From contig WELB01000420.1 in NCBI GenBank assembly GCA_009602725.1, positions 1-38,849 of the forward strand: a DNA stretch of 38,849 nt, given 5' to 3'. Numbering within the stretch: the first letter of the stretch is position 1; each line of letters starts with the position of its first letter. Both the position numbers and the translations under genes were made by a program. Below the pieces are notes generated by a model. That model ran no database searches. It saw only the letters and a list, made by a program, of their open reading frames with translations, and had not been told where the DNA came from. The DNA is from Spirogloea muscicola (taxonomy: Eukaryota; Streptophyta; Zygnematophyceae; Spirogloeales; Spirogloeaceae). Of the stretch, positions 215-33,432 are shown piece by piece.

Positions 215-3200
215 GCCGTGCTGGGCGAGCTGCGCTTGCGGCAGGATGCATACGCCAAATTCCAGGCGGCTCGATCAGAGCGCTACCGGCAGGACCTGCG
301 GTGCGTGCGCGCCGACGGCGCGCACGTGTGGGTGCGGCTGACCGTCTCGCGTGCCCGCGAGGAGCGCCGCTGCGCCACTGAGTTCGTCATGTGCATGCTC
401 GAGGACATCACTGTCAGCAAGCAGGCCGAGGTTCGAATCGCAGCCCCCCAAGCCTTCCTACATGGGGCAGGAACTATTGTGGATGACAGAAATGGCTGGA
501 TTTAGAAGGAAGAGGGACGCAGGAAGATGGGATTGGAGGGAGGCGCAGAGAGAGCAGGGTAGGGAAGAAGAGGGTGAGATGTGTGTAGGGGTTAGGGAGG
601 AGGGAGGGAGGGAGGGAGGGAGGATGGGTGCAGGGTGAGAGCAAGAATGGAAGAGGTATTAGGGACGGTGGGAGACTGAGAGAGAGAGGGGAAGGGGAGT
701 TGCCAAGGGGGTCGAGTGTGAGAGCCAGAGTGCTGGAGATCAGAAGAGAGTGACAGGATCACGGAGCAGAGGCAGAGAGAGTGACAGAGGAAGTAAAGAT
801 GGAGGCCGAGGAGGAAAAGATACTGTTAGTGCGAACTACAGATAATGGACAGGAAGACGAAGGGATACAGGAGGAGGGTCCAGGAGGGAGAAACAGCAAG
901 GAGACTGTTATCACTAGAGATATACAAATGGTAAATTTAGTTTGTCTAATGCTGTGCCTAACGGTTGTCGCTAATTCCTCGGTAACACTGAGCCCTGTGG
1001 CGCTCGGGCTCTTGCAGGAGAGCTTGGCGCGCGTGGCGCGGAGCTTCCAGCTCGTGGTGGAGCACGTGCCGCTGCCGGCGGTGTTCAGCTCGCCGAGTCG
1101 CGACGACGAGCTCATTATCAACCGCGCGTGCGAGCACCTGCTGGGGTACCGCAAGGAGGACATCAACACGCACGACAAGTGGTTCAGGTCGGCCTCGGCT
1201 CGGCACAGCCGCAGCTCCGTCGTGACTGTGACCGGCGCCCATGCGGCGCTGCACAGGCCTCTGCCGATAGCTGACGCCACACGTTTCCTCACCAGCACGT
1301 TGCATCGGGAGGGCGCGAGGCACTGGCGGCAGGAGTACGAGCGGGCGCGCGAGGCGCGCTTCCCTAGCAAGCTGCTCATGCCAGCTTTTCACAAGGACGG
1401 CTCTCAGTGCTGGATCGAGTGAGTGCCGCACCCCAGCATGACCATCACTCAGTTTTTCTATGACTTGTGCAGTTTGGTAATCTCATCTGGGGATTGGCAG
1501 CCCTGACTGCTAGACTAGTGGGAATGACAATTTAATAAGTTCTTGTTAATGAGGGAAAGTGGGACCATTATCGAATAATAATGGCTGCCAGCAGCATTGT
1601 AATTAACGGAGTTCCTTTCGTCGTAGAGCGAGCAGTTTCTTGCTGCAAAGCTATGGAGGGTAGAGTTGGGGAGTCGCAGAGTAAATGGATATTATAGGGT
1701 CATCATTCTGCATGACTGGTCATAGGGCTAGGAATGGGCTTAAAAGTCAGGAGTGATAGTGTACGGAACTGGACTTCAAAGGGTCCAGGTGTCAGTGAGA
1801 ACAGGCTTTCTGAAGTCTAGTGCAAGGTAGTGCCATCTTATGCAGTAAGTAGCATGATTGCTGGGCCAAGTTGCACACCATAAGACAGAGCGGCCTTGAA
1901 AGCTGCGCTGATTGCACTCGTAACCCTTCCACTGGCGGCCCTGTGTTGATCCGTGCAGGTGGACGGGGTACCTGTACGATGGTGGGGAGCTGTGGATCGT
2001 GAACGACGTCACGGAGCAGCGGTCAGCCCAGGAGAAGTTTCACATCCTCTTCGACGCGTCCTCTGTGAGTGCTCTTGCCCTGCACTCCCTTGGACTCAAC
2101 AGTAAGTGCCTGATTGCTAGTCAGTAAATAGCACTGAAATTTGTTGCCGTACCAGCTTCAAGTGGTACTACATTGAGCCATTCATCACAGGATATGAAAT
2201 GGGCAGCGGTAACAAGTGCCACCCACAAGGATATGTCCCAGGATCCGATACTGCTCTGCAACATCAATTTGGAGGTCCAGGACTGCAACGAGGCGGCGGT
2301 GCGTATCCTGCAGCGTGAAAGGAAGGAGGAGGTACTTCGTGTTGTGAAGCACCTGGGCAACCCCGTCGTGATGCCACTCATGCAGCCCGACGGGCGGCCC
2401 TCCCTCGAGGTGAAGCTCGGTGGCCATCCTGTGCAGTTGTGCAGAAGCCCTCGGGGTGTAGGCTCCACTCCTTGCTGTTCCTCTTCTACCTCTTGTATAT
2501 TAGAGTCCTTAGTGAGAGTTACCATTGGAACGTGCTTCAAGAGCTTCTTTTTTCTGATATGTATGCACTGACGATGGTGCTTAATGATTGGGCAGCGGAT
2601 ACTGGAGAACGACGTGGTTGTCAAGCGTGACGGGCACCACCGTTTTGAGTGGGTGCACCTCCGCAAGGACGGCTCGGACCTGCTCGTGGAGGTCACGCTG
2701 AAGCTCATCAGCATTAACGGGGAGGCCCACATCCTGGTCGTGTGGCACGACCTCACCGAGCGCAAGAAGCAGGTGCGCATTGTGGTGCTTAAGAGCTTCT
2801 CTTGTTTACTCTGTCAGGTTGCTCTTTATCCTGCTCTGCGCGTGCCTGCACTCTTTGGACACTTGGTGGTTTTCTTTGTATTCACTTCTGGAGAGTCGTT
2901 GGTGGATCTCAATCAGACTAGCTGCGCACTTAAACAGGAACTGGACCTGCGCCTAGCCAAGGAGGCAGCTGAAGCAGCCAGCCAGGCCAAGAGCCGGTTC
3001 CTTGCTAACATGTCCCACGAGATCCGCACTCCTATGAACGGTATCTCCTCTCGCTTTCTTCTGCAGCCCATGCACAGACCTCCTCAAATGCTGCAGGTCC
3101 TGTCCTCCACACTGCGTGATAGTGATCAAAAAGTCCAAATTCATGTTTGGTAGGAAATTGTTCACCGAGCGAAGACAATGGAAAGTTGTCAATGAAATTG

Positions 3201-6200
3201 GTTTGGCGTGTTTCTTATCAGGTGTCATTGGGGTGGCGGAGCTGTTGAAGAGCACAGAGCTTAATGAAGAGCAGCAGTCGTACCTTGACATCATCCGGAC
3301 GTCTGGGGACAACTTGCTGCGCATCATCTCCGATGTGCTGGACCTCAGCAAGATTGAGGCGCAGAATCTGAAATTGGAGAGTCTGGAATTCGACTTTTGC
3401 GTGCTGTTGAGCGAGGCTCTGGCACTCCTGGACGTTGTTGCTAGTGAAAAAGGTTCGTGCTACCTAGGCTGCAGTATTGTTGGACATTCTTCAAGAGTGT
3501 GATGCCAGAATGCAAGGTTTCCCTGTCTGCACTTTGTTTCTGTCGCGTGACCATCCAGGGGCTTCATTTGGAGCGGAAACGTATTCAGTACCTGAGCTGT
3601 TCCATGCTCAAGCACTGAAGTGCTTACAGTCAAGTGCCTGATAGCATCTGAAATAGGATTTGTATTCCATCTTCCTGTAATTGCAGCTCTACGGCTTACT
3701 TATGACGTCGATGAGGCCTTACCTCCTCGACTAATTGGAGACCCCACCAGGATACGGCAGATTCTGCTCAACCTGGTGTCGAATTCCATCAAGTTCACTG
3801 AGGCGTAAGTTTCTGATACTTAATCAATGTCTTCCAAGGGCGTAGTACTGTCTACAAGTCAAGATCTAGTCTTGCAACGCATTCTGATGCATCCTGACAG
3901 GCACCCTGAGCAGAGTGGTACTAATGCACTGACACCTCAACATGTTCATGGTGCCAGTGGCCAGATCATAGTATCTGTGAAAGTCGTCGATAGAGTTAGA
4001 GACAGCACCAACGAGTCTTTAGAGAAGGTCAGTGAGATGATGATGAGTTGAGCAGGCCTCTGTAGGCAAGCTTGCTATCAGGCACTTGCAATAAGATGGT
4101 GCATAACAGCAGTCTTGGAAGCCTTCTATGATGTGCATGCACATTACCAGGACTCTGCCATTTGTGATACGGGCCTAAGATGTAACTCAGTGAATGAGCA
4201 GGTTGTTGTAAGGTGTGAGATACAAGATACGGGTGTGGGGATCAATCACGAGGCATTGGATAAATTATTTCAGGCCTTCATGCAGGTACGATGCCTGTTG
4301 ACACCAGGAGTGGATGCAGGCAGAGGCTTTGTTCAAGATAAGACTTGCACAGGGAAAGTAGCCGCCTGCATGGCTGGTACCATATCTTGACAATTTGCTT
4401 AAGGACATTTTGCATGTCCATGTGGTGGCCTTGAGCTGGAACACCTAGTTGTGCACAACTCAGAAGGCAAGTAGTATGTAACTGCATGACGATTAGCTAA
4501 GATACTCAGTGGAGTGTTGCTAAAGTTTTGGGCAGTGCTGGCCTGCCAAAATGTCCTGTTTCCTTTGATACATAATCTCAACCATGCACACAGGCTGATA
4601 CGTCAACTAGTAGAAAGCATGGAGGCACAGGTTACCACAGACCTCCCCTTTGTGTCGTGAGTAAAGTGCATGCTGTTGAGTTGTCACAACTCAGTAAGCT
4701 GGCATACTGCAAGCAAGTACTCGGCTGCGCAGCAGCTGACAAGCGTTTGGGGTTGCTGAGCTCAAATGCTAGGAGGAGGGGGTTGTTTGATCTAAGAGAA
4801 GATGTGTATTGATATCTGGCTTTCAATTTGCAACTGCAGGACTTGGATTAGCTATAAGCAAGTCCCTGGTTGAGCTTATGGGTGGGCAGATCGGCGTCAC
4901 AAGCGAAGAAGGAAAGGGGTCTACATTCTTTTTCATCTTAACACTAGGCATCAGCAATGTGCCTCGAACACCTGCGGGTGCAGCAGGAGAGGGGGCATCT
5001 CTTATAAGAGGAAGTAGAGAGGACATGGCAGCCCTGAGGGTGCTGGTGGTGGAAGACAACAAGGTGAGCTGTCGTGAGATGTCTGTTGTGTCCTTGCCTG
5101 CCTACTTGCAGTGCTAGGCTAGTAACTCCATAGACTTTTCATGAGGGTCAACCTTGCCAGTTCTGGAACAGTCATACAGTACACCTTGCCTTTTGCAGGT
5201 GAATCAGATTGTGGTGACAAAGATGCTCAAGAACATGGGCGTCATGTATGACTTGGCTGAGAATGGAGTAGAAGCTGTCCAAGCTTACCTAGATAATGAC
5301 TACGACCTTATCTTAATGGTTGCTCCTTCAGCCTTATGCCAATGTCCTCATGCCTTAGCAAAAAGTGAAATGAGGCCTCCAAGCAGGTCCAAAGTTCCAT
5401 AGCCATGTTAATGTTTGTCTGAAAACGATATAGTATTATCAGCGTCCTCCACATTCAGAATGCCTCTTTAACGAGTTATGTGGTGGCCGCTGGCCAACTA
5501 GCTTGTATCATGCTGATAAAGTGCTAACTCCTCATCACAACCTTTTCAATGCAATTTGGACGTTGGTAACTGACACTGTAGCTGTTATTCTCTTATGATC
5601 ATTGTCAGGATTGCCACATGCCCGAGATGGATGGCTTTGAGGCAACAAGGAGAATTCGAGCACTGGAGCTTCGCAAGACGCAGGCCTCGCACAAGCCGAA
5701 GCCCTACATAGTTGCTCTGACAGCGTCGGCCTTGAGTCACGAGCGGGAGTCCTGTGAGAGGTCCGGCATGGATCACTTTTTGACGAAGCCCGTAAGGCCC
5801 AAAGACTTGGAGGAATTGATGCTGACACAGGTCTGCCAGAGATCAGGGGTCCAGCGTGATGCTGTCCGATAATTTGCACTGTATTATGCCTTCATTCTTT
5901 ATTCAACATTGTGCCTCAGCTGAGGGCCTCCAATGTCCGAATTCGCACAAAGCCATTTGATTTGAACATGTGGTGTCCAACGTCATGTAATGCGGCATCT
6001 CGTTTGGTAAGTATTTCATCAGGCAGTACATCGGGGGCCTACTGTAATACTATGGCCTGCAAACTTGCTCCCACGAGTTTGCAGCAGTTGCGTCAAGGAC
6101 TGCTACTTTGCAGGCAGCTCTCCAAGTCGGTGACCAGATCAATATAGGCAAGATCTCACGATATTGCTCGTTTCTGCATACGATTATTCATACGCAAAGG

Positions 6201-6311
6201 ACGAGGATGACAATGACCAGACAAGCACGTGCATGCCCTGCCCTGTTGTCACGTCAGGAGTCCTACCAAGATGACACTCGTACTTCTGAATTTACTCGTA
6301 GCTCTGACTGA
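215..6311 (+). CDS. PAS-containing hybrid sensor histidine kinase, copy A (intact, 5' partial)
   Basis: Predicted exons: 215-430, 1018-1187, 1296-1418, 1959-2064, 2242-2409, 2596-2772, 2938-3040, 3222-3452, 3687-3804, 3958-4027, 4202-4285, 4594-4630, 4840-5063, 5199-5318, 5609-5830, 5920-6006, 6114-6311. All phases join, giving 817 residues without a stop; the start lies upstream. Domains: PAC end 1-72; PAS/PAC about 73-195 (ends [14 protein letters not shown]); PAS/PAC 196-320 (ends [10 protein letters not shown]); dimerisation domain with phospho-His347 in [15 protein letters not shown]; ATPase with N-box [12 protein letters not shown] (N464), G1 DTGVG 503-507, F-box LFQAF, G2 GGTGLGLAIS; receiver with E606/D607, phospho-Asp650 (DCHMPEMDG), T687 and K709. 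Such proteins autophosphorylate on His and pass phosphate to their own Asp, normally onward through an Hpt protein. No membrane segment is visible, so a soluble PAS-sensing kinase is inferred. The signal is unknown. The 108-nt intron at 1188-1295 is a multiple of three and could be retained in frame. The last exon after K752 is uncertain because it is not conserved in copy C. Confidence 0.85.
431..1017 (+). other. purine-rich intron of HK copy A
   Basis: The interval lies between the first PAC exon and the next PAS exon, and its 3' end is a good acceptor (CTTGCAG). It is strongly G/A-rich on the sense strand. At 602-620 five GGG runs are separated by single A, a G-quadruplex-compatible motif. 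The open frames in this interval are low-complexity purine readings, not genes. Confidence 0.6.
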
Positions 6312-6700
6312 TTTGGTTGCTCAACATGACCTGCTTTTGCAGTGAGCTGGCTGGACCATGTGCAAAGAGGCACTCGACGTGTGCGGAGCTCTTTGTTGCC
6401 TGCAGCTTGGCTGAAACAAGGTCTTGCAGGTTGCAATGCAGGACAATGAGCATGCTTTCCAATAAGTCGCGTAGTTGTACACTCTCAAGCAGTCGTACTC
6501 AGCTCTAGGAAGAACATGGACATTTGTGGAAGGTGCAGTGTGCTTGACACACTCCGCATGAACGAGCTTCTGAGCTCAAACATGCACGATGCAGAAACGT
6601 AGTAATGCAAGCAAGCAGCACAATTAGCCGCGCAGATCTAGAATCAATGCGGCTGCTGACATAGTTAGAACGGCTGTAAAAGCCAGCAAGGTGCTTACAG
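6312..6700 (+). other. 3' flank of HK copy A
   Basis: No convincing gene. The stretch is conserved in copy C (about 28994-29360) and contains acceptor-like sites such as CTTTTGCAG near 6342 and TCTTGCAG near 6430. It may be 3' UTR or alternative terminal exons of the kinase. A reading GDVEERLLQGARRAASATV (about 6718-6774, ending at a stop near 6793) is conserved in copy C and could be a terminal exon, but it lies antisense to a LINE relic. Confidence 0.4.
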
Positions 6701-7085
6701 AAGGTGTTCATGACGGAGATGTGGAGGAGAGGCTGCTGCAAGGAGCTCGCAGAGCAGCGTCTGCTACTGTGCTCATGCCCGAGACGAGCACATAGGGGGG
6801 CTTCGTGACGAAGAGGGTCTTCAGCCGGAGGTCGGAGTAACTTGCAGCTGGAAGAGAGGCACCCCGACGAGACCCAGAAGTAGCAGCCAATCTGGGACCG
6901 TTGGAAGGCAATGGACAGCCGCATATCGAACACCTGGGCAAGCGACCCAGCGCCGTGAAGCCGGGCAGCTCCCCTTGCTGTCCCTGCGGACGATCCTGGC
7001 CCGCCGTGCAAGCTGCTGCAGCAGGTCCAGCCACGACTGCTGAACGCCCCTGCAATGAGATAGGGCTCGGAAGACGTAAATGACA
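6700..7085 (-). pseudogene. LINE C-terminal relic adjoining HK copy A
   Basis: Read on the minus strand, two frames together give the LINE end pattern: LDLLQQLARRAR, then GSLAQVFDMRLSIAFQRSQ, then ASLPAASYSDLRLK. It therefore carries at least one frameshift. The usual terminal LLSRGY is replaced after SDLRLK, so the tail is not the standard F1 or F3 3' end. The same relic follows HK copies B and C, so it was part of the unit before triplication. Confidence 0.65.
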
Positions 7086-7265
7086 AAGGAAAGCAAGTGG
7101 TTACTTATTTTTGGCAGCTGGAAAACCCCATGTCAGCAGCCACAAGTCCCTCCCTCCCTCTCCCCCCCCTCCTGTTGGGAGTTGGATCGTCAGCCAGGCG
7201 CCGGCCTTTGGTGAGGGAAAGGCGGAGACCCACCGACTGTGTTTTGTCAGGCTTTGTCCACCTGA
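7086..7265. other. conserved spacer before M element, unit 1
   Basis: No gene is seen. A CCCTCCCTCC-rich stretch is followed by a segment ending TTTGTCCACCTGA immediately before the M element. The same spacer is recognisable at about 17661-18043 (interrupted by an F1 end) and 29770-29967, and marks the repeat unit. Confidence 0.6.
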
Positions 7266-7319
7266 GGGCCGGGTTACACCGGGACGGACGGACGGACGGA
7301 GGGGTACGTGTCGCGCGGT
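7266..7319. mobile_element. M element, left terminal part (unit 1)
   Basis: Starts GGGCCGGGTTACACCGGGAC followed by repeated GACG, preceded by TGA as at the intact copy 29968. The sequence is cut after CGCGCGGT, and the interior resumes at about 8008 behind a nest of LINE fragments. The end closely matches the other GGGCC..TTACACC termini in the window. Confidence 0.75.
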
Positions 7320-11201: not shown

Positions 11202-11694
11202 TGTGTGATTCCTTGTTGCTCTTCAAAGTCGGAAGGAGACAGGCGGGGGTCGTGAGGTGGCATCTAATACCAGCCTGCTTTGTAGACGCCACAGACGCTA
11301 TAGACGCCATACCGGTGTGCCGCTTTCATCGCACCATGAGCTGTCTCCCCGTCCACGGGCGTAGCCTCGGGGTACAAACCTCCATCGTCTGCTCGGAATT
11401 TCCGACGCCTCTGCTATAGCACGCTGCATGCCTTCCTTACATCTGCATCTTCCCCACCGCTGTCGGGTACGCTACTAGTCTTCTTCCTGCAGGGCGTGCT
11501 GCTTGCCTTCTTCTACCTGCTTGGAGTCTCTGGTTCGTTCGTTGCTTGCTTGCCCGCTTGCTTGCTTACCAGCTTCTACTTCTCTATCATTTGCATTCAC
11601 TTCTGGTGCTTCTACTCCAATATTTTTTTGATCGATTTCTCTATTTCTGGTCATATTAACTTCTTGAGGTGTCGTTTTTGAATTATCCTGCATC
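11202..11694 (+). other. E1 leader
   Basis: Shared with E2 (21887-22305) and E3 (31446-31904): TGCTTTGTAGACGCCACAGA, CACCATGAGCTGTC, then CT-rich sequence with GCTTGCTTGC runs up to the ATG of the 184-aa ORF family. It includes the unoccupied M-element site (CTCTTCAAAGTCGG, 11221-11232). It may be promoter/5' UTR; no clear TATA box is seen. Confidence 0.55.
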
Positions 11695-12917
11695 ATGTGC
11701 GCAGCAATCAGCGCGATGTGGCCTCAAGAGGTCGTCAATCGGTTCAACGCCATCCCCCCATGCCCGCGAGAGAATAACTTCTCTGGGCCGTACAACAAGC
11801 TGCTATATACTGCATTCCCATGGGACAGCAAGTTTTCAGTGGCACCTCAGCCTCATCCACTGCCTGACTCGAAAGACTCTGAAGACTTTGTGTTCGAGTA
11901 CATGGTACTAATGGACTTTAACATCCCCGTCTTCATACTTGAGATTGAGGAGCCAAGCAGAATACAATCCCTATCTGCAAGGCAAGAAGCGGACATGTGG
12001 ATCAGGAGGAGGCTAAGGGACTTGCGGGACGAATGCCCTCTAGATAGACTATACGGTGTAAGTGCGTTTGGCAAACAACTTCGCACATATTATATGGACA
12101 AGCAGTAAGTAATTGATCCTTATGCAAAACCACAATGCGCAGGATCACCAGTAGACACAGCACCAAGAGTGTAACGAATGCTGTAGATCGCCAAGCCCGG
12201 GCTGCCGGCAGCGCAAGGAGAAGCGGGAGGCATTGGGATGGGTCCGCAACGGTAAAATTGACAAACGGTTACTGCAGGGGCAAGGGTCCAGGGGTCCGAG
12301 GTTGGGTGAAGAACTCACCCCCTCTCCCATCTCGGGTGCCCCCTTTATAGCCCGACGGCCTGCGAGCCCGGCCATACGGGCCCGGGTGGGATGTTCGGCA
12401 CCCAGTCTCTCGTTGATGACCCGTCCACGACCTGTCGACGGCTATCAACGGCTACCACCGACAATCTACCCGTCACTCGCAGCTGACGGTCACTACCCCC
12501 AGGCTATCGTCAGCCGTCTATCATCCCCGTCAATACTAACGGCTAACAATGCCGTCAAGGCAGTCTACAGCGATGCCACCTCCCGTCGCCGTTCCAGCGC
12601 CAGCACCATGCTGTCTCGCGTGTCACGACTCCGGGTTGCGCCGCTCTCAGCTCTATATCAAAGCCACGCTGCCCAGCCTGGTGAAATTGTCCGTCTCCAG
12701 GCATCTGTCAAGCCTTTCCTGCGGCACTGACAGTCAATTTATTTATCAGCCGGTGAGGTATCTAATCTCCAGGCATCTGTCAATACATTACAGCTGCATT
12801 GACATTCCAGCCATGTAAATTCGTTACAAAGAGAGAGATGGAATTTGATTATACTTACTACAGGCGGATATCATGAGCTTACTTGTATATTTGACTATAT
12901 AAAGAATAACACTTAAC
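11695..12917 (+). pseudogene. E1 copy of the 184-aa unknown ORF, truncated and split
   Basis: Starts MCAAISAMWPQEVV and matches the intact copy at 22306, including VFILEIEEPS and RRRLRDLRDE..LDRLYGVSA. At 12106-12108 a TAA replaces the TAC codon of the intact copy (YYMDKQ-stop instead of YHVDKQY). Sixty-one bp further on, a 659-bp TG..CA element (LTR1) splits the remaining frame, whose end resumes at 12834. Function is therefore probably lost. The shortened 137-aa product still contains the most conserved part. Confidence 0.75.
12170..12828. mobile_element. LTR1: solo-LTR-like insertion, 659 bp
   Basis: Ends TGTAACGAAT..ATTCGTTACA form a perfect 10-bp inverted pair and begin TG, end CA. The 5-bp duplication AAGAG flanks it (12165-12169, 12829-12833). 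The E2 paralogue at about 22770-22785 shows the empty site CACCAAGAGAGAGATGG. TTTATAG near 12344 could be the TATA of an LTR. No coding sequence is convincing. Length, TG/CA ends and 5-bp duplication fit a solo LTR; a TIR DNA element with 5-bp duplication is the alternative. Confidence 0.75.
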
Positions 12918-17660: not shown

Positions 17661-18029
17661 GACGTAAATGACCAAGGAAAGCACGTGGTCACTTACTTCT
17701 GGCAGCTGGAAACCCCCATGTCCGCAGCCGCAAGTCCCTCCCTCCCTCGCCCTCCTGTTGGGCTTTGGATCGTCAGCCAGGCGCCGGCGTTTTTATCGGT
17801 GAGGAAAGGCGGAGACCCACCGATTCAGGCTTTGCCAGGGGACCCACTTCCAGGAGCCTAGCGTCTCTCATCTGCGGCTGCTTAGCAGGGGTTCCTGAGT
17901 GATTCGTAGCTGCTTTGTTTCTTCTTGTGCTAGTTTTCCTTAGCGCTTCCCCCGGCCTCCTTCTCGTACTTGGTTCATTCTGTTTTGGGCTGGCTTTTCC
18001 AGCCCCGATCCTCAATGGGCAAGCACTTT
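17661..18029 (+). mobile_element. spacer with F1 LINE 3' end
   Basis: The first 170 bp repeat the spacer before the M element. From about 17835 a plus-strand F1 end follows: GGGGACCCACTTCCAGGAGC, a damaged terminal codon (GGTTCCTGA for GGTTACTGA), 3' UTR, stem-loop GGGCTGGCTTTTCCAGCCC and tail to 18029. Confidence 0.65.
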
Positions 18030-20751: not shown

Positions 20752-21600
20752 TCATAGCGCCAGCCTGATCGCCAAGGCCGCGCAGTCCCAGGACAGCCGC
20801 GCTGCATCCCCAAGCAAATTGTAGTGGCCAAGTCTTCCTTCCGCGCACGCCCGACCGATCTCGCTCTGCTGGAAGACCTCACAGTCGTGCATGCTGCCGC
20901 ACCGGCCGACGTCAAAGTCCCAGATCTTGCGCTTTGCGTCGGCCACCACCTGCAGATGCACTGAGTAGTGGCTCTTACGGTTTTAGTAGTCTTGGGGATC
21001 GACACTTGGCCGGATGATCGGGATGTGGCCGTCGACTGCGCCGATGACGTACGGGATGCCTGCGAGCTCCCAACACTCGGTGGCCGTGCCGTCCATCCCC
21101 GCGTGTGTCGGCCATCTGACTTGCACCTGAAGCAGGATGCCCTTGATAGCGAGCAGCACCTGTCTGACGATGACGCTAGCCGTGCACGCCGCCATCCCGA
21201 GAAGATCGGCTGTGTCCCTGAGTCCACATCCGGTTGCCAGGCGGTGCAGCGTGGCCGCAATCCTTGCTTCCACCAGCACAGCTACTCCGTACTTCGTGGC
21301 TCGCTTCTCGAGCGCGCCGCGGAGAGCCTGGACCAGCCTGTCAAAGACTCTGCGCCACACTCTCACGCGCTTCCGGAAGTGCTCCTCGGTGAAGTCGACC
21401 TGCAGCTGGTGGAGCCAGCCGGTCGGCTGAGTGGAGCTCCACAGGAGGCGCGGTGCTCTCTCCTCCTCCCCTCGCAGCAACATCGTGGCCACGAGCGCCA
21501 CGAGCGCCATGATCTCGATCTGCTGCAAGAGCGGCAGCAGATTCGCCTCCGCCGCCGCCTCCACCTCCGCCTCCGCCTCCGTCGAGCGCAGGACTGCCAT
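20752..21600 (-). pseudogene. PIF/Harbinger (DDE_Tnp_4) transposase, interrupted
   Basis: Likely start MAVLRSTEAEAEVE at 21600. An acidic Ala/Glu stretch is followed by the helical N-terminal region (FRKRVRVWRRVFDRLVQAL; LHRLATGCGLRDTADLLGMA; ASVIVRQVLLAI). The catalytic domain then shows IPYVIGAVDGHIPIIRP (first Asp; the usual Thr between DG and H is missing), DPQDY-stop-NRKSHYSVHLQVV, and GRCGSMHDCEVFQQS (second Asp). The TAA at 20983-20985 lies in frame where the family has a single residue between Tyr and NRK. After LLGDAA the frame departs from the family and the third acidic residue is not found. Family members cut and paste DNA as nucleases with a separate Myb-like partner, which is not seen here. 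Inactive as it stands. Confidence 0.8.
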
Positions 21601-21886
21601 CGTGACGCAGCAGATCCGCCTCCGCTCGGGCCCCGTGCCTGCAGGCCTGGTCGGCAGCGGGAGGGGGGAGCGTGGGCCTGCGGGGGCGCTCGACCAGGCG
21701 GCGGGCGGCGGCGCTGCTGCCGGGGTTTGAAGCTGCTGCCCTGGCGCGCCGGGCAGCCAATCCGACCTGGCGGGGCTTGGGAGGTGGCACCGCACGTGCA
21801 GGCGGCCCCGGCGTCCGCGGTGGCGACCTCCCCTTGACCCGGCGGTCAGCACGTGCGACACCGCGCGACCTGCTGTAAACAAGCCC

Positions 21887-22305
21887 TAATACCAGGCTGC
21901 TTTGTAGACGCCACAGACGCTATAGACGCCACACCGGTGTACCGCTTTTATCCCACCATGAGCTGTCGCCCCCTCCACGGGCTAGCCTCGGGGTACAGAT
22001 CGTCATCGTCTGCCCTTCCCGTCGCTATCTTGCACCCCAAACCCGCTGCATACTTACCCTGTGGCTACGGGTTTCCCACTCCTGCCGAGCACGCCGCGAG
22101 GCTTCTTCCTGCAGGGCGCGGCGCTTGCCTTACTCTACCTGCTTGGAGTCCCTGGTTCGTCCTTCGCTTGCTTGCTCGCTCGCTTGCTTACCAGCTTCTA
22201 TTTCTCTATCAATTGCATTCACTTCTGTCGCTTCTTCTCAAATATCATTTTCTTCGATTCCCTTCTTATTCCTTGTCTGAGGTCGTTTTTGCAATATCCT
22301 GAATC
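21887..22305 (+). other. E2 leader
   Basis: Homologous to 11262-11694 and 31486-31904. It holds TGCTTTGTAGACGCCACAGA, CACCATGAGCTGTCGCC, GCTTGCTTGCTCGCTCGCTT and a CT-rich stretch before the ATG. It is the presumed 5' UTR/promoter of the next gene; no core promoter motif is certain. Confidence 0.5.
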
Positions 22306-22860
22306 ATGTGCGCAGCAATGAGCGCGATGTGGCCTCCAGCGATCGTCAAACGGTTCAATGTCCTCCCCTCATGCCCGCGAGAGAATGACTTCTCTGGGCC
22401 GTACAATATGCTGCTATTTTATGCATTCCCATGGAACAGCAAATTTGTAGTGGTACCTCAGGGTTTTCCACTGTCTGATTCGAGAGAGACTGAAGACTCT
22501 GTGTTCGAGTACGTGGTACTATTGGACAACACACCCGTCTTCATACTTGAGATAGAGGATCCAAGCAAAGTACGATCCCTATCTGCAAGGCAAGTAGCGG
22601 ACATGTGGATGAGGAGGAGGCTACGGGACATGCGGGACGACTGCACTCTAGATAGACTATACGGTGTAAGTGCGTTTGGCAAACAAGTTCGCACATATCA
22701 TGTGGACAAGCAGTACGTAATTGATCCTCATGCAAAACCACAATACGCAGAATCACCAGTAGAAACAGCACCAAGAGAGAGATGGAATTTAGATGTACTT
22801 ACTACAGGCGGATATCATGAGCTTACAAGTATTTTTGACTATATAAAGAATAAAACTTAA
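22306..22860 (+). CDS. 184-aa protein of unknown function, intact member of the E-block family
   Basis: Open from ATG (CATGTGCGCAGCA context conserved in E1 and E3) to TAA. Conserved features: GPYNMLL at 31-37, VFEYVVLLDNTPVFILEIED at 66-85, MRRRLRDMRDDCTLDRLYGV at 102-121, then SAFG and TAPRERWNLDVL at 154-165. The alpha/beta run ending FILEIED resembles the hydrophobic-strand-plus-E.E/K signature of PD-(D/E)XK-like folds; here the last position is E or D, not K, so nuclease activity is doubtful. From memory it resembles an unnamed family common in fungal genomes, with FILE(I/L)KPPS and GVSAFG motifs; this needs a search. No signal peptide or membrane segment. Three copies in the window suggest a repeat-borne or recently duplicated gene; this is the only one without breaks. 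Confidence 0.6.
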   Translation: MCAAMSAMWPPAIVKRFNVLPSCPRENDFSGPYNMLLFYAFPWNSKFVVVPQGFPLSDSRETEDSVFEYVVLLDNTPVFILEIEDPSKVRSLSARQVADMWMRRRLRDMRDDCTLDRLYGVSAFGKQVRTYHVDKQYVIDPHAKPQYAESPVETAPRERWNLDVLTTGGYHELTSIFDYIKNKT

Positions 22861-23735
22861 GAGCAGTACTATCTCGTGGTGCTGTCGTCTACGATGATTG
22901 AGAAGCCCATCTCTGTCTTGCGATCCCCCGCCTTTTGACTCTACTCTCTCTTAAAATCAGCACAGTAGTGCGCACAAAGAACGCACTGATTGACAATCAT
23001 AGTATGTATGAGAATGCTCCTCTTCTTGCAGCCACTCAGACTAGGCTTTACAGAGGACGAGATCGAGCGTGGTTGCAGCATGCTAACATGGCTGCAAGTT
23101 GTAGCAATCAATCCTTTAAGAAAAGTCTTATTCCTTGACTATGGTGGTGTACAGCCTAATATGGCAAATATGGACCTAAATAAGCTGTGTATCCTCCCTT
23201 TCCCATATATAGCCAATAGGATGGGTAAGCAAATATGAAGCTCTAGTAGAGATGGTGGACCGAATTGAGAAGGTAAGAAGAGACGAAGAGAAGGACCACT
23301 TCCCCCTCTTTTACTGTTTCTGCATCCTGACTCCATCTGTACGTAGGTTTTCGCACTGGCATGCTCAATATCGCCAATATCCTATCTATGGAGTACGGAG
23401 TACGGATTACGCTCATAAGAATGTTTGTCACCAGGATGATGGTGGAAGGGTATCCATCCCTCTATAGACCTTTATGGCCGTACTCCGTACTCCATTGAGT
23501 GTTATTTTTATGAGTACACAGAATTAGGAGAAAAAGCGTACCCCACGTAAGCGTACCCCACATACCATTTACGGCCCAAAACATGGTAAATTCACCCAAT
23601 ATATAAGCCCTACCTATGCATAATTGGGGTACGATTTCAACTGTATTGGCGCTCTTGCAGCCCTGTATCATCATACCATCCCTACTGAGCTTTATCTTGG
23701 CGTACCCCACGTACCCCATCTAATATGCTGTATTC
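22861..23735. other. E2 distal segment
   Basis: Conserved with E1 and E3. An 82-codon open frame at 22990-23238 reads LGFTEDEIERGCSMLTWLQV..VLFLDYGGVQPNM and stays similar in E1 from LRFTEEEIERGCS on, with TAG in place of an early codon. An acceptor-like CTTCTTG(T/C)AG precedes it, so it may be an exon. Function unrecognised. The rest holds GGAGTACGGAGTACG and GCGTACCCCACGTAAGCGTA repeats. Confidence 0.4.
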
Positions 23736-24265
23736 CAGGCCTTCATGCAAGTACGACGTCTATTCTTACAAGGAAGTGGGTGCAGCAGAGGCTTTGTTCA
23801 AGATGAGACTCGCACAGAAAACGTGATTGCCTGCATGGCGGGTACCATTTTGACAAACATTGCTCAAAGGACATTTGGCTTGTCCTCGTTGTGGCCTTGA
23901 CTTTTGAACAACTTCTTGTGCACAACTCAGAAGCCAGATAGTAGATGCCTGCATAAACGTCAGCTAAGGTACTCAGTCGAGAGCTGTTAGAATTTGGGTA
24001 ATGCTGGCCTGCCCATGTCCAACTTTCTTTGATACATAATCTCAAACATGCACACAGGCTGACACGTCAACTGGTAGAAAGCACGGAGGCACAGGTGACT
24101 GCAGGCCTCCCCTTCGGTCGCTAGTAGATGGCATGCTGGTGTTTCATCAAAACTTCAGTAACTGGCATACTGCAAGCAAGGTACTCGATCGTTCAGCTGC
24201 TGTCAAGCGTCTGGGGTTGCTGAGCTCCAACGCTAGGAGGAGGCGGTTTCGTTGGCAAAATCAAA
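23736..24265 (+). pseudogene. HK slice fused to the E2 block
   Basis: Same slice and same left junction as 13800-14330: CAGGCCTTCATGCAAGTACG directly after ACCCCATCTAA-type E sequence, then the small exon DTSTGRKHGGTG (about 24058-24094) and the following intron to CAAAATCAAAT. On the right it joins a different sequence from unit 2. Confidence 0.75.
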
Positions 24266-24339
24266 TGTGTACTGACATCTGGTTCTCACTTGCTCTCCAT
24301 GCGCCTCCCTCCAAGCCCGTCTTCCTGCCTTCATTCCTT

Positions 24340-24800
24340 CTTCATTCCAGCAGTACTTCTGTCATCCGACATAGCTCCTGCCCATCGAAAAAGTCTTGGG
24401 GGACAGCGATGCAAACCTCGGCCTGCTTGCTGACGGCGATGTCGTCGAGCATGCACATGACGATCGCGGTGGCGCAGCGGCGCTCCTCTCGCGGCGATTT
24501 CACAGCCGATTCTTTCATATCAGCAGCCGCTTTCTTCTTTTCTCGCGGTCAGCCGCACCCACACCGGCGCGCCGTCGGCGCGCACGCGCCGCAGGTCCTG
24601 CCGGTGGCGCTCTGATCGAGCCGCCTGGAACTCGGCGTATGCATCCTGCCGCAAGCGCCGCTCGCCCAGCGCGGCCTAGTCAGCAGAGACGCTTGCGTCG
24701 GCGGGCTCGTGCCGGGCCTCCGCAGCTGAGGTCCTCGCCCAGCAGTGGGAAGTGGAGAAACGAGATAGCTAGGATGAGGGAGGAGCTCGTGACAAGAAAG
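24340..24800 (-). pseudogene. inverted first PAC exon of HK copy C
   Basis: The minus strand reads [39 protein letters not shown], matching copy A residues 3-50, with the acceptor TGACTAG conserved. About 50 bp (24495-24545) interrupt the exon before GCGCCGCTGCGCCA. The block corresponds to copy A about 115-510 reversed, including intron sequence on both sides, so it is a local inversion within copy C. Confidence 0.75.
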
Positions 24801-24841
24801 TAAGAGAGAGCGGAGCTGGAGGAAGAGAAGAAGAGAAGATA

Positions 24842-27800
24842 CTTGTCCGGGACGCCGATGTCCGCTTCCCTGCCAAGGACGCCAATGGCCGCTTCCTCTT
24901 CGCCAACAAGGTCGGGGTGATGGTCTCGCCGCTCGGCTCCTTGCCCCTCTGCACCATCAAGATCTGCAACACAGACATGGAGGTTCAGGACTGCAACGAG
25001 GCGGCAGTGCGAATCCTGCAGGGTGAGAAGAAGGAGGAGGTACTTCGTATCGTGAAGCACCTAGGCAACCCCGTCGTGACGCCACTCATGCAGCCCGACG
25101 GGCCGCCCTCCCTTGAAGCTCGGTGGCCAACCTGTGCTGCTGTGCAGAAGCCCTCGGGGTGTAGGCTCCACTCCTTTCTGTTGCTCTTGTACCTCTTGTA
25201 TATTTGAGTCCTTAGTGAGAGTTACCATTGAAACGTGCTTTAAGAGCTTCTTTCCGCTGATAATGTATGCACTGAAGATGGTGCTTGATGATTGGGCAGC
25301 GGATGCTGGAGAACGACGTGATTGTCAAGCGTGACGGGCACCACCGTCTCGAGTGGGTGCACCTCTGCAAGGACGGCTTGGACCTGCTCGTGGAGGTCAC
25401 GCTGAAGCTCATCAGCATCAACGGGGAGGCCCACATCCTGGTCGTGTGGCACGACCTCACCGAGCGCAAGAAGCAGGTGCGCAATGTGGTGCTTAACAGC
25501 TTCTCTTGTTAGTCTAATTACTCTGTCAGGTTGCTCTTTATCCTGCTCTGCGCGTGCCTGCACTCTTTAGACACTTGGTGGTTTTCTTTGTATTCACTTC
25601 TGGAGAGTCATCGGTGAATCTCAATCAGACTAGCTGCGCACTTAAACAGGAACTGGACCTGCGCCTAGCCAAGGAGGCAGCTGAAGCAGCCAGCCAGGCC
25701 AAGAGCCGGTTCCTTGCTAACATGTCCCACGAGATCCGCACTCCTATGAACGGTATCTCCTCTCGCTTTCTTCTGCAGCCAATGCACAGACCTCCTCAAG
25801 TGCTGCAGGTCCTGTCCTCCACACTTCGTGATAGTGATCAAAAAGTCCAAATTCATGTTTGGTAGGAATTTGTTCAACAAGCGAAGACAATGGAAAGTTG
25901 TCAATGAAATTGGTTTGGCGTGTTTCTTATCAGGTGTCATTGGGGTGGCGGAGCTGTTGAAGAGCACAGAGCTTAATGAAGAGCAGCAGTCGTACCTTGA
26001 CATCATCCGGACGTCTGGGGACAAGTTGCTGCGCATCATCTCCGATGTGCTGGACCTCAGCAAGATTGAGTCGCAGAATCTGAAATTGGAGAGTCTGGAA
26101 TTCGACTTTTGCGTGCTGTTGAGCGAGGCTCTGGCACTCCTGGACGTTGTTGCTATTGAAAAAGGTTCGTTCTACCTAGGCTGCAGTACTGTTGGATATT
26201 CTTTGAAAGGGTGATGAATGCAAGGTTTCCCTGTCTGCACTTGATTTCTGTCGCGTGACCATTCAGGGGCTTCATTTGGAGCGGAGAAGTATTCAGTACC
26301 TCAGCTGTTCCATGCTCAAGCACTGGAGTGCTTACAGTCAAGTGCCTGATAGCATCTGAAATAGAATCTGTATTCCATATTCCTGTAATTGCAGCTCTAC
26401 GGCTTACTTATGACGTCGATGAGGCCTTGCCTCCTCGACTGATTGGAGACCCCACCACGATACGGCAGATTCTGCTTAACCTGGTGCCGAATTCCATCAA
26501 GTTCACTGAGGCGTAAGTTTCTGATACTTAATCAATGTCTTCCAAGGGCGTAGTACTGTCTACAAGTCAAGATCTAGTCTTGCGCCGCATCCTGATGCAT
26601 CCTGACAGGCACCCTGAGCAGAGTGGTACTAATGCACTGACATCTCAACATGTCCATGGTGACAGTGGCCAGATTTTAGTATCTGTGAAAGGTGTCGACA
26701 GAGTTAGAGACAGCACCAACGAGTCTTTAGAGAAGGTCAGTTAGATGCTGATGAGTTGAGCACGCCTCTGTAGGCAAGCTTGTTACCAGGCACTTGCAAT
26801 AAGATGGTGCATAACAGCAGTCTTGGAAGCCTTCTATGATGTGCATGCACATTACCAGGACTCTGCCATTGGTGACACGGGCCTAAGATGTGACTCAGTG
26901 AATGAGCAGGTTGTAGTAAGGTGTTAGATGAAAGATACGGGTGTTGGGATCAATCACGAGGCATTGGATAGATTATTTCAGGCCTTCATGCAGGTACGAT
27001 GCCTGTTCTCACCACAAGTGGTTGCAGGCAGAGGCTTTGTTCAAGATGAGACTTGCACAAGAGAAGTAGACGCCTGCATGGCTGGTACCATGTTAAGACA
27101 ATTTGCTTAAGGACAATTTGCATGTCCATGTTGTGGCCTTAGAGCTGGGACACCTAGTTGTGCACAAGCCAGAAGGCAAGTAGTATGTAACTGCATGACG
27201 GTCAGGTAAGATACTCAGTGGAGTGTTGCTAAAGTTTTGGGCAATGCTGGCCTGCCAAAATTTCCTGTTTCCTTTGATACATTATCTCAACCATGCACCA
27301 CAGGCTGCTACGTCAACTAGTAGAAAGCATGGAGGCACAGGTTACCGCAGACCTTCCCTTTATGTCGTGAGTAAAGTGCATGCTGTTGAGTCGTCACAAC
27401 TCAGTAAGCTGGCATACTGCAAGCAAGTACTTGATTGCTCAGCTGCTGACAAGCGTTTGGGGTTGCTGAGCTCAAATGTTAGGAGGAGGGGGTTGTTTAA
27501 TCTAGAAGAAGATGTATATTTGTTTCTGGCTTTCAATTGGCAACTGCAGGACTAGGATTAGCTATTAGCAAGTCCCTGGTTGAGCTCATGGGTGGGCAGA
27601 TCGGCGTTATAAGCGAAGAAGGAAAGGGGTCTACATTCTTTTTCACCTTAACACTAGGCATCAGCAATGTGCCTCGAACACCTGCGGATGCAGCAGGAGA
27701 GGGGGCATCTCTTATGAGAGGAAGTAGAGAGGACATGGCAGCCCTGAGGGTGCTGGTGGTGGAAGACAACAAGGTGAGCTGTCATGAGATGTCTGTTGTG

Positions 27801-28993
27801 TACTTGCCTGCCTACTTGCAGTGCTAGGCTAGTAGCTCCATAGGCTTTTCATGAGGGTCAACCTTGCCAGTTCTGGAACAGTCATACAGTACACCTTGCC
27901 CTTTGCAGGTGAATCAGATTGTGGTGACAAAGATGCTCAAGAATATGGGCGTCATGTATGACTTGGCTGAGAATGGAGTAGAAGCTGTCCTAGATAATGA
28001 CTACGACGTTATCTCAGTGGTTGCTCAGTCAGCCTTGTGCCAATGTCCTCATGCCTTAGCAAAAAGTGAAATGAGACCTCCAAGCAAAATTCCATAGCCA
28101 TGTGTGTGTTTGTCTAAATAACGATATAGAATTACCAGCGTCCTCCACATTCAGAATGCCTCTTTAGCGAGTTACATGGTGGCCACTGGCCAACTAGCTT
28201 ATATCATGCTGATAAAGTACCAACACCTCATCACAAACTTTTCTATACAATTTGGATTTTGGTAACTGACACACTAGCTGTAAATTTCTTATGATTGTTG
28301 TCAGGATTGCCACATGCCCGAGATGAATGTCTTTGAGTCAACAAGGAGAATACGAGCACTGGAGCTTCGCGAGACGCAGGCCTCGCACAAGCCGAAGCCC
28401 TACATAGTTGCTCTGACAGCGTCGGCCTTGAGTCACGAGCGGGAGTCCTGTGAGAGGTCCGGCATGGATCACTTTTTGACGAAGCCCGTAAGGCCCAAAG
28501 ACTTGGAGGAATTGATGCTGACACAGGTCTGCCAGATATCAGGGGTCCAGCGTGATGCTGTCCGATACTCTGCACTGTATTCTGCTTTCATTCTTTTTTC
28601 AACATTGTGCCTCAGCTGAGGGCCTCCAATGTTGAAATTCGCACAAAGCCATTTGACTTGAACGTGTGGTGTCCAATGTCATGTAATGCGGCATCTCGTT
28701 TGGTAAGTATTTCATCAGGCAGTACATTGGGGGGCCCACTGTGATCCTATGGCCTGCAAACTTGCTCCCACGAGTTTGCAACAGTTGCGTCAAGGACTGC
28801 TACTTTGCAGGCAGCTCTCCAAGTGGGTGACAAGATCAATGTAGGCAAGATCTCAAGATGTTGCTCGTTCTTGCATAATATGTTAATACACGAAGGACGA
28901 GGAAGACAACGACCAGACAAGGACGTGCATGCCCTGCCCTGTTTCATCGTCATGGGTCCTACAAAAAAGACACTCGTACTTCTGAATTTTTAA
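24842..28993 (+). pseudogene. hybrid histidine kinase, copy C (nonsense codon, lost donor)
   Basis: Exons homologous to copy A: PAS about 24960-25120, 25300-25476, 25650-25752 (H-box HEIRTPMNG intact), 25934-26164, 26395-26512 (N-box LVPNSIKFT; S to P), 26666-26735, 26910-26993, 27304-27340, 27550-27773, 27909-28019 (three codons fewer), 28305-28526, 28616-28702, 28811-28993. TAG at 26925-26927 replaces GAG four codons before DTGVG. A 5-nt deletion near 25114 removes the GT donor present in copy A (CTCGAGGTGAAG against CTTGAAG). The receiver keeps DCHMPEM but has NV in place of DG. An N-terminal piece absent from copy A's visible part, DADVRFPAKDANGRFLFANK (about 24852-24911), looks like the start of a PAS domain. 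Probably a recent pseudogene: all other phases still match. Confidence 0.85.
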
Positions 28994-29380
28994 GCTCTGA
29001 CTGATTCGGTTGCTCAACATGACCTGCTTTTGCAGTAAGCTGGCTGAACCATGTGCAGAAAGGCACTGGACTTGTGCGGAGCTCTTTCTTGCCTGCAGCG
29101 TGGCTGAAACAAGGTCTTGCAGGTTGCAATTCAGGAGACTGAGCATGCTTTCCGAAAAGTCGCATAGTTGTACATTCTCAAGCAGTTGTACTCAGCACTA
29201 GAAAGACCATGGACATTCGAGAAAGGTGCAGTATACTTGACACACTCCGCAGGAATGAGCTTCTGGCTCAAACATGCACGATGCAGTAACGTAGTAATGC
29301 ATGAAGACAAGCGAGCAGCACAATCAGCCGCGCAGATCTGGAATCAATGCTTCTGCTTACATGATCGCTGTAAAAGCCAG
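28994..29380 (+). other. 3' flank of HK copy C
   Basis: Conserved with copy A 6312-6715, including the acceptor-like TGCTTTTGCAG near 29026-29036. No independent gene is seen. Confidence 0.4.
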
Positions 29381-29770
29381 CCAGGTGCTTACGAAAGAGG
29401 TGTTTATGAGGGAGATGTGGAAGAGAGGCTGCTGCAAGGAGCTCGCAGAGCAGCGTCTGCTACTGTGCCCATGCCCGAGACGAGCACATAGCGGGGCTTC
29501 GTGAAGAAGTGGGTCTTCAGCCGCAAGTCGGAGTATTTTGCAGCTGGAAAAGAGGCACCCCGATGAGACCCAGAAGTAGCAGCCAACCTGGGACCGTTGG
29601 AAGGAAATGGATAGCCGCATACCGAACACCTGGGCAAGCGACCCAGCGGCGTTGGAGCCGGGCAGCTCCCCTTGCCGTCCCTGCCGACCATGGATGGCCC
29701 GCTTGGCAAGCGGCTGCAGAGGGTCCAGCCACCGACTGCCGAAAGCCAGTGAAAGAGATCTGGAGACGTA
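29381..29770 (-). pseudogene. LINE C-terminal relic adjoining HK copy C
   Basis: Minus frames FGSRWLDPLQPLAKRAIHG, GSLAQVFGMRLSISFQRSQ and PAAKYSDLRLKTHFFTK recapitulate the relic after copies A and B. The first block (FGSRWLD) shows it is the same C-terminal region as the F3 copies at 36240-36590. Frameshifted and dead. Confidence 0.65.
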
Positions 29771-29967
29771 GATGACAAATGAAAGCACGTGGTCACTTAC
29801 TTCTGGCAGCTGGGAAACCCATGTAAGCAGCCGCAAGTCCCTCCCTCCCTCGTCCCCCTCCTCCTGTTGGGAGTTGGATCGCCAGCCAGGCGCCGGCCTT
29901 CGGCGAGGGAAAGGCGGAGAACTCACCGATTCAAGGCTTTGCCTTGAATGTTTGTTTGCCCACCTGA

Positions 29968-30341
29968 GGGCCGGGTTACACCGGGTCGGTCGGCCGCGCC
30001 GAGGCGTACGTGCCGTGCGTTGTATGAAACACCCGGCGTTACACTGGGCGCGGGCCCGGTCGTGGTCGCACGCCACGAAGGCGCCACATCGGACTCTGAC
30101 CTGGACGGATTCTGTCGGCGCAGGAGGAAAAGGCGCGCGTTTGCCACGAGGGCAGCCGGAAAATAGACCGCCCACCCCAGCCCGGCCCAAAAAAGGGACA
30201 GTTGGCACCTACCCTCCAAATCCGCAAGGACAATAATTACGCAACACGGGCAGGCCGCCTCCGGCCTCCGTGGCAGCGACACCCCCTTGACCTGGCGGTC
30301 AAGACGATTTCGCACGGCCGACCCGGTGTGTAACCCGGCCC
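29968..30341. mobile_element. M element, compact intact copy (374 bp)
   Basis: Termini GGGCCGGGTTACACCGGGTC and the complement of CGACCCGGTGTGTAACCCGG CCC are inverted. TGA flanks both ends (29965-29967, 30342-30344). No coding capacity. Shared ends and subterminal sequence with the Harbinger relic at 20178-21886 make it the likely MITE-type derivative of that transposon. Confidence 0.8.
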
Positions 30342-30367
30342 TGAAGAATTTTCTTGTGCTCTTCAAA

Positions 30368-31445: not shown

Positions 31446-31904
31446 AAAAGTCGGCGGCGGTAGCTGAGGTGGCAGGTCCAAAACCAGTCTGCTTTGTAGA
31501 CGCCATAGACGCTATAGACGCTATAGACACCGGTGTGCTGCTTTTATCCCACCATGAGCTGTCGCTCCTCACGGGCATAGCCTCGGGGTACAAAGATTCA
31601 TCGTCCGCACCATCCAGGCAATTCCTCCCCTGTCCGCACTACACGCTCTTCCGTCCGTACAATTCTCTTCCATTTCGGCCGGTGCCGCTGCAAGTCTTCT
31701 TTCGGCCGAGTGCGCTGCTTGCTTTCTCCTACCTGCTTTGGAGTCTCTAGTACATTCTTTGCTTGCTTGCTTGTTTATCTGCTGCTACTTGTCTATCATT
31801 TGCATTCACTTCTGTTGCTTCCGTTCAAATATTAATCTCTTCGATTGCCTTCTTATTTCTGGTCATCATTTGACTGAGGTGTCGTTGTCATTGAACTATC
31901 CTGC
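31446..31904 (+). other. E3 leader with 9-bp minisatellite
   Basis: Same leader as E1 and E2. The TAGACGC(C/T)A unit is expanded (31497-31530) to four copies against three in E1 and E2. CT-rich sequence with GCTTGCTTGC precedes the ATG. Confidence 0.55.
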
Positions 31905-32540
31905 ATTATGTGCGCAGCAATTAGCATGATATGGCCTCAGAAGATCGTCAATCGTTTCATTGCTGTCCCCTCAAACCCGGAAGAGAATGACTTTTATGCG
32001 CCGTACAACAAGCTGCTGAACCATGTATTCCCAGTGGACAGCGAGTCTCCAGTGGCACCTCAGTCTTATCCAGTGCCTGAGTTGAGATAATCTGTGGACT
32101 TTCTGATCGAGTACATGGTTCAGCAGCTTGTTGTACGGCTCATAGAAGTCATTCTCTTCCGGATTTGAGGGGACGGCAATGAAACGATCGACGATCTTTT
32201 GAGGCCACATCACGCTAATTGCTGCGCACATAATAAATTCCTATCTGCAAGGCAAGAAGCGGACATACAGAGCAGGAGGAGGCTAAGGGATTTGTGGGAC
32301 GAATGCACTCTAGATAGACTACGGTGTATACGCGTTTGGCAAACAACTTTGCACATATTGTATAGACAAGCAGTATATGATTGATGCTCATGCAATACCA
32401 CAAGACGTAGACTTCATGATATATACAGCACCGAGAGAGAGCTGGAATAGATATGCTTACTACAGGCGGGGAATATGAGCTTACAAGTGTATTCGACTAT
32501 ATAGAGAATTACACTTACGAGCAGTACTATCTCTTGATGC
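31905..32540 (+). pseudogene. E3 copy of the 184-aa ORF, broken by a fold-back
   Basis: The frame starts MCAAISMIWPQKIVNRF (31908) and stops at 32088-32090 (TAA after VPELR). The middle of the gene is replaced by an inverted copy of a family member's 5' end (32114-32234). The 3' part resumes at CTATCTGCAAGGCAAGAAGC with further small changes. No product is expected. Confidence 0.75.
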
Positions 32541-33432
32541 TGTCTGTCGTCTACGATAATTGAGAAGCCCACCTCTTTCTTGCGATCCCCCGCCCTTTGA
32601 CTCATATACTCTCTCTTAAAATCAGCACAACAGTGTGCACAAAGAGCGCACTAATCGACAACTATAGTAGGTATAAGAATACCCCTCTTATTGTAGCCAC
32701 CCAGACTACGCTTTAAAGAGGACGAGATCGAGCGTGATAGCAGCATGCTAGCATGGCTGCAAGTTGTAGCAGCCAATCCTTTAAACATGAATTATTCTTT
32801 TGGGTATGGTGGGGTACAACCTAATATGGCTAAGATAAACCCAAATAAGCTGTGTATCTTCTTTTCCCCCATATATAGCTTATAGGATAGGGTAAGCAAA
32901 TATTAAGCTCTAGTAGGAATGGTGGACCGAACTAAAGAGTGAAGAAAGGACCACGTCCCCCTTTTTCCCTGTTCTTGCATCCTGACTCCATCTATACATT
33001 CGCAATGGCATGCTCAATATCGCCAGATATCATATCTATGGAGTACGGAGTATGTAATACGAATGTCTCATAAGAATGTTCATAAACAGGATGATGGTGG
33101 TAGGGTATCCATCCCTCTATAGACCTTTACGGCCGTACTCCGTACTCCATTCGTTAATACTACAAAGAATACACAGAATAAGGGGAATAAGCCACTATTG
33201 TTGCATCAAAACAAATTGACTCCATCTGACTCCATTAGCCCAGAAAAGAGCCAAACACCACTCCTTCAAAAGCATCACATTGAGCCATTTATCAAGTGTA
33301 CCCCACGTACCATTCAAGGCCCAAAATATAGCAGTTTCACCCACTAAATGAGCCCTACCTATGCATAAGTGGGTTACGATTTAAGTAGATTTGCGCTCTT
33401 GCAGCCCTGTATCATCATACCATCCCTACTGG
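32541..33432. other. E3 distal segment
   Basis: Homologous to E1 and E2 distal parts, with extra sequence at about 33185-33300. Where E1 and E2 continue into the HK slice, E3 instead stops at CATCCCTACTGG and joins an F1 tail. No gene is seen. Confidence 0.5.

Follow-up and report, generated by a model that had tools for sequence, protein, structure and literature searches.

Neighboring parts of a tandem histidine kinase array in Spirogloea muscicola differ in divergence and genealogy

Three collinear units on one contig

We analyzed the whole of contig C420 (38849 bases), which we refer to as the window. It holds three collinear units (units 1, 2, and 3; w1, w2, and w3 in comparisons), and each of these includes, in the same order, a copy of a histidine kinase gene (HK), a LINE-like relic, and a block that we call E. 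The features, with their coordinates in the window, are:

215-5830, plus strand: HK1, a hybrid histidine kinase gene with 14 inferred exons, an open frame, and the domains PAS-HisKA-HATPase_c-REC; the 5' end lies beyond the contig
6676-7317, minus strand: HK tail and antisense LINE-like relic of unit 1
11264-13794, plus strand: E1 block, beta type (joined to a slice of HK), split by the insert at 12170-12828 (self-BLAST, trees)
12170-12828, no strand assigned: solo-LTR-like insert within E1, private to unit 1, with TG..CA ends and the target duplication AAGAG
13797-14330, plus strand: HK slice 1, HK 4267-4784 joined to the end of E1 (slice clade 100/100)
14331-17272, plus strand: HK2, an apparent pseudogene that starts at HK position 2408, with exon length changes, stops, and an LTR in an exon (self-BLAST, exon map)
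14673-15214, no strand assigned: solo-LTR-like insert, private to unit 2, with TG..CA ends and the target duplication GGCAC
17271-17823, minus strand: tail and LINE-like relic of unit 2 (self-BLAST, genome search)
21886-23730, plus strand: E2 block, beta type (self-BLAST, trees)
22306-22860, plus strand: E2 open reading frame, 184 amino acids, with no known family found in searches
23731-24291, plus strand: HK slice 2, joined to the end of E2
24291-24783, minus strand: inverted piece of the HK 5' region (107-556) ahead of HK3 (self-BLAST)
24963-29292, plus strand: HK3, a probable pseudogene without the 5' PAS exons of HK1; its counterpart of the exon at 4202-4285 contains a stop
29370-30019, minus strand: tail and LINE-like relic of unit 3 (self-BLAST, genome search)
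31480-33434, plus strand: E3 block, alpha type (like the blocks on contigs C52 and C184), with a broken frame and an inverted E piece at 32109-32234

The sequence-only reading of this DNA had described a tandem triplication of a single unit. In a self-BLAST of the window, which is a check of the dot-plot type, we saw the three parallel diagonals that this implies, and the order of the parts was the same in all three units, as that reading had proposed. The HK blocks lie at 2255-7317, 14331-17823, and 24963-30019, and the E blocks lie at 11264-14330 and 21886-24291 (both including a slice) and at 31480-33434. The HK block of unit 1 (2255-7317) is 91.6% identical to that of unit 3 (24963-30019), and 2408-4783 matches 14331-17272 in unit 2 in two pieces (94.7% and 93.8%). 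For the LINE-derived tail, identity is 85.4% between 6676-7236 and 17271-17823 and 90.4% between 17271-17836 and 29370-29943. For E, 11264-12169 and 12826-14330 match 21886-24266 at 83.6% and 87.9%, and E1 and E2 match 31282/31480-33434 in pieces, at 73-86%. The slices of HK 4266-4828, at 13797-14312 and 23731-24291, match at 78.7-80.3%. Self-BLAST E-values reach down to 0, so the similarity between units is not due to chance. The array is real, and it is a genome change of a known kind. A slice of HK had been expected at the end of every unit; it is present in units 1 and 2, and in unit 3 the E block ends at 33434, where a repeat starts. Searches of the window found no RNA families above threshold and no tRNAs.

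One open kinase copy and two decayed copies

HK1 contains HisKA (2.8e-24), HATPase_c (2.3e-26), and a receiver domain (Response_reg, 1.5e-21) in a single open frame, all above the Pfam cut-offs, which identifies it as a hybrid histidine kinase. There is one clear PAS domain at residues 241-352 of the spliced frame (PAS_9, 3e-15) and a weaker partial match to PAS_3 at residues 12-48; note that the version scanned with Pfam contained 7 residues from a doubtful exon of 21 bases. This 15th exon (3560-3580) was later dropped: each of the three window copies has GG in place of the acceptor, and without the piece there is an open frame over 778 amino acids. (An AG one base before the GG would break the frame at residue 480.) Exon ends were set by eye rather than from transcripts, and the intactness of HK1 depends on them. 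HK1 carries all of the domains of plant and algal hybrid histidine kinases (PAS-HisKA-HATPase-REC). In comparison with these, the N-terminus of HK1 is beyond the contig and its exon ends are inferred, and it is placed by its domains.

At 3557-3560, and at the same places in HK2 and HK3, the three window copies have one extra G relative to the copies on contigs C9 and C22. This base lies within a presumed intron and also points to a common origin of the trio.

HK2 lacks HK positions 4784-6675 (the end of HATPase and REC) as well as everything 5' of 2408, and it has 547 extra bases (the LTR and its target duplication) within an exon. In HK3, the exon homologous to 5199-5318 is short by 9 bases, and the receiver motif MDGFEA is replaced by MNVFES. 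The 24834-24963 stretch, just ahead of HK3, resembles the beginning of a PAS domain (KDANGRFLFAN). HK1 has no such sequence within the contig, and this stretch may represent the 5' exon that is missing from the kinase.

We take HK2 and HK3 to be probable pseudogenes: dN/dS is 0.54-0.94 within the window trio, as compared to 0.08-0.25 among HK1 and the C9 and C22 copies (0.17-0.25 in the 5' segment, and 0.08-0.13 further on, in the mid and 3' segments). These values still include the 7 codons of the dropped piece, and they leave out all comparisons with w2 in the 3' segment (which is deleted in w2, leaving nothing homologous to compare) and all comparisons with the C52 copy (misaligned in the 5' segment and partial in the mid segment, with dN/dS of 0.27-0.81). 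HK2 and HK3 would be decaying through truncation, stops, a frameshift, and an LTR insertion, and we infer that HK1 is the copy that was kept working as a phosphorelay sensor kinase. When the exon map is applied to the C9 copy, there is a GG acceptor ahead of exon 1, and exon 2 is longer by 2 bases and has one stop; in the C22 copy, exon 2 is longer by 58 bases and has two stops. Either exon 2 as we set it is not exact for these copies or both of them are also losing function.

Repeats within the units

The LINE-like relic had been taken to be older than the array, and this is borne out by the genome: it is also found downstream of the HK copy on C22 (84%), and the adjoining HK tail is found on C52 and C184. 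The part of the relic at 6822-7054 is widely repeated (57 matches among the 40 scored of 1041 candidates). LTR insertions had been described as private to single units, and this stood for the two that we examined, both of which have target duplications of 5 bases. The insert at 14673-15214 was identified as a solo LTR by its ends, its duplication, and its copy number (of 1040 candidates, 40 were scored, and among these were 39 further copies with 94-98% identity); the insert at 12170-12828 was judged by its ends and AAGAG alone. Also, 20983-21885 on the minus strand has an open frame of 300 amino acids that by eye resembles a Harbinger-type transposase and has no Pfam match.

Other versions of the locus

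We located the HK core at six places (seven matches in a genome search): three in the window and one each on C22, C9, and C52. A protein search with E gave at least 16 matches, which correspond to three copies in the window, two on C9, and one each on C52 and C184; a DNA comparison identified part of E on C22 as well. Thus, HK and E also occur together outside the window, on C9, C22, and C52, and as remnants on C184. On C9, HK, E, and a second partial HK are in tandem, and the junction between E and the slice recurs there. We also considered E as a high-copy transposon, which is not supported, as all of the matches listed in the protein search were on C420, C9, C52, and C184.

The genome looks to be about threefold redundant, which would fit a triploid, an allopolyploid, or an uncollapsed assembly. 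For example, actin is on three contigs (C15, C121, and C258) that are 89-91% identical over 3.3-3.4 kb, and many of the 78 HisKA matches in the genome have equal scores in twos and threes. The flanks of the HK copies on C9 and C22 are 85.5% and 84.9% identical, so these are syntenic versions of one locus; the flanks on C52 and C184 are 85.1% and 86.7% identical. For the C9/C22 locus, each of the two flanks has three matches in the genome (C22, C9, and C6 for the left flank, and C22, C9, and C17 for the right flank), which makes the window the probable third version of this locus. The link to C6 and C17 is an indirect one, as both border runs of N: the homology of C6 stops at 437887, beside a 56-base N run and opposite an N stretch upstream of HK on C22, and C17 has a 15-kb N stretch ahead of the right flank. 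In the 12 kb of C6 past its gap we saw no HK or E sequence and no match to these loci. In having threefold flanks, along with control genes that also come in threes (about 84-91% identity), the locus resembles duplicated loci in polyploid or uncollapsed assemblies; the threes here could be haplotypes, subgenomes, or both. Genes were also seen to recur in twos and threes on separate contigs, such as LHC on C37, C98, and C130. The LHC genes (68 matches), the actin, which is of a green type, and a CP29-like protein all indicate the green lineage; the best three matches of the CP29-like protein are multi-domain LHCI chains, followed by CP29.1 chains, and these chains are from land plants.

In such a redundant genome, reads from homeologous copies might be chained into a false array, and C420 is short (38849 bases) and begins inside the locus. 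We consider such an artefact to be very unlikely: even in their youngest part the units are 4-6% apart, they have private inserts, and the junction of E and the slice is also on C9, in a tandem of HK, E, and partial HK.

On C22, at about 721922-724772, there are two inverted arms that match the HK tail and the 5' part of E, with tail pieces of 491 bases that are identical. This is either a recent palindrome or a fold-back in the assembly.

Parts of the unit differ in divergence

The sequence-only reading had derived one relative timeline from the array. We compared the divergence (K) of HK introns, E blocks, and LINE relics, as it had proposed, and the results are discordant and contradict a single timeline: K among the window copies is 0.04-0.06 in the HK mid introns, 0.08-0.14 in the LINE tail, 0.12-0.18 in the 3' DNA of E, and 0.24-0.33 in the 5' DNA of E.

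In the HK mid introns, K is 0.055 for w1-w2, 0.058 for w1-w3, and 0.040 for w2-w3, as compared to 0.26-0.29 from the trio to C9 and C22, and a tree of the HK core (2745-4260) places w1, w2, and w3 in one clade (support 100/100). In the LINE tail, K is 0.078 for w2-w3, 0.091 for w1-C22, 0.133 for w1-w3, and 0.141 for w1-w2. Site patterns in this tail favor w1+C22 against w2+w3 (19 sites, versus 2 and 0 for the other two splits); with outgroups, the tree joins w2 and w3 alone and leaves w1, C22, and C184 in no resolved order. The window trio could still be one clade in the LINE tail, with faster change in w2 and w3 contributing.

For the 3' DNA of E, K is 0.118 for w1-w2, 0.171 for w2-w3, and 0.184 for w1-w3. 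In the tree of this noncoding DNA, a clade of w1, w2, and w3 is rejected (p-AU 0.00066), and w3 is placed with C52 and C184 (100/99). At an indel in E, E3 shares its state with C52 and C184, and E1 and E2 differ. The position of the two C9 copies (one of which is inverted) in this tree is weakly supported (75/79), and the beta type is defined by the slice and the indel rather than by this tree. In the tree of the slices, support is 100/100 for a single clade of w1, w2, C9, and the inverted C9 copy, and the five HK sequences fall outside it, in another clade; K for w1-w2 is 0.087. From these segment trees, the junction between E and the HK slice is old and common to the window (E1 and E2) and C9, and it appears to have arisen once; the HK cores are younger than the blocks between them. 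The C9 copy itself seems to be a mosaic, with K to w1 of 0.259 in the HK mid introns and 0.108 in the 3' introns.

Could the units nevertheless have been copied whole, with mutation rates that differ along the unit? The shared order of the parts, the single clade of HK cores, and their uniform divergence (K of 0.04-0.06) would fit with a plain segmental triplication of this kind, and rates do vary by place, as K for w1-C22 is 0.28 in the HK mid introns and 0.09 in the LINE tail. But relative to w1-C22, the divergence of w1-w2 rises from 0.2-fold in the HK introns to 1.5-fold in the LINE tail. The order of the distances flips between neighboring parts of the unit, so a single genealogy with differences in site rates alone is insufficient. 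Together with the rejection of the E trio and the indel state that E3 shares with C52 and C184, this makes a plain triplication unlikely. Of the proposed tandem triplication of one unit, the three collinear units stand, but they do not descend from a unit copied whole: the HK cores form a young clade, and the E blocks do not group together. Because the parts of the unit do not have a common history, the single timeline fails.

Alternatively, a clean tandem duplication might have been followed by replacement of E3 and the tails through ectopic exchange with other loci. The grouping of E3 with C52 and C184 is what this would produce, and, to judge by the mosaic C9 copy, loci may be able to exchange sequence. 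However, E1 and E2 are also further apart than the HK cores (0.118 in the 3' DNA of E and 0.087 in the slices, versus 0.055 in the introns), so more than E3 must have been exchanged, and we consider this scenario quite unlikely.

A proposed history

The explanation that we favor, and consider fairly likely on the basis of these comparisons, is that an old tandem HK-E locus exists in several versions in the genome and that its kinase cores were later homogenized. The tandem arrangement of HK and E, with at least two types of E, would predate the divergence of the genome copies, and the window's version of the locus would carry three units. The HK cores would then have been homogenized by gene conversion or unequal exchange, while the E blocks and the tails kept older differences. 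Conversion or unequal exchange as the agent, and the order of these events, are our interpretation of the discordant trees of adjacent segments, and the ends of the tracts can be placed only roughly. One result counts against this history: in a quartet over 5064-6460, w1+w3 is still favored over C9+C22 (15 versus 6 and 6). Within the same history, E3 could derive from the C52/C184 locus by exchange.

With young and similar cores, older flanks, and decaying copies beside a constrained one, the locus resembles tandem arrays under concerted evolution. It differs from them in that its units also hold an orphan block (E) fused to an old kinase fragment, and conversion is suggested here by discordant trees. 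The locus is a compact natural case in which separate dates can be obtained for adjacent parts of a repeated unit, and it illustrates that order and spacing alone can mislead as to the origin of an array. As one genome contains several versions of the locus, the decay of the kinase and the exchange of sequence could be measured side by side.

An orphan frame in the E block

The E frame is open in E2 (184 amino acids), in the inverted C9 copy (183 amino acids), and for 158 codons on C52, and it is broken in E1, E3, and C184. If random substitutions equal in number to the differences between E2 and C9 are introduced, the frame stays free of stops in 5-6% of trials, and between E2 and C9 there are no frameshifting indels, versus 5.2 expected at the rate of the 3' DNA. 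The frame was therefore probably under selection, although the test is biased by the choice of open copies. For E2-C9, dN/dS is 1.04, and across all ten pairs it is 0.47-1.92, a range that includes four comparisons with C184 that are inflated by frameshifts and on which no argument rests. The value of 1.92 is for w1-w2 and is a point estimate from 45 non-synonymous and 7 synonymous differences. E thus represents an orphan family whose frame is kept open without marked conservation of amino acids (dN/dS near 1).

We considered the E frame as a candidate PD-(D/E)XK-like nuclease and found no match to it in Pfam, PDB sequences, PHROGs, phage records, IMG/VR, or prokaryote genomes. E as a viral, phage, or prokaryotic gene was set aside, as we found no relative in the last four of these collections, which do not extend to eukaryotes. 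The frame presumably has an ExK-like motif and some likeness to fungal proteins. A fold model from the single sequence had a pLDDT of 31.7 and was unusable. E might be a fast-changing orphan protein gene, perhaps nuclease-like, that stays near the kinase locus across several copies of the genome, and its product or its sequence might bring about the breaks, palindromes, and exchanges that recur around it; we give this idea hardly any credence. Of the whole locus, the E frame and the way it is linked to the kinase are most worth following.

Inverted pieces of E are found at 32109-32234 in unit 3 and, within or beside E, at 1167649-1168216 on C9, and they read as another sign of repeated inverted duplication at E. 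Finally, the 3' noncoding DNA of E (for example, within 22860-23730) contains a short inverted repeat, GGAGTACGGAGTACGG ... CCGTACTCCGTACTCC, in several of the aligned E copies, which is perhaps an old small element.
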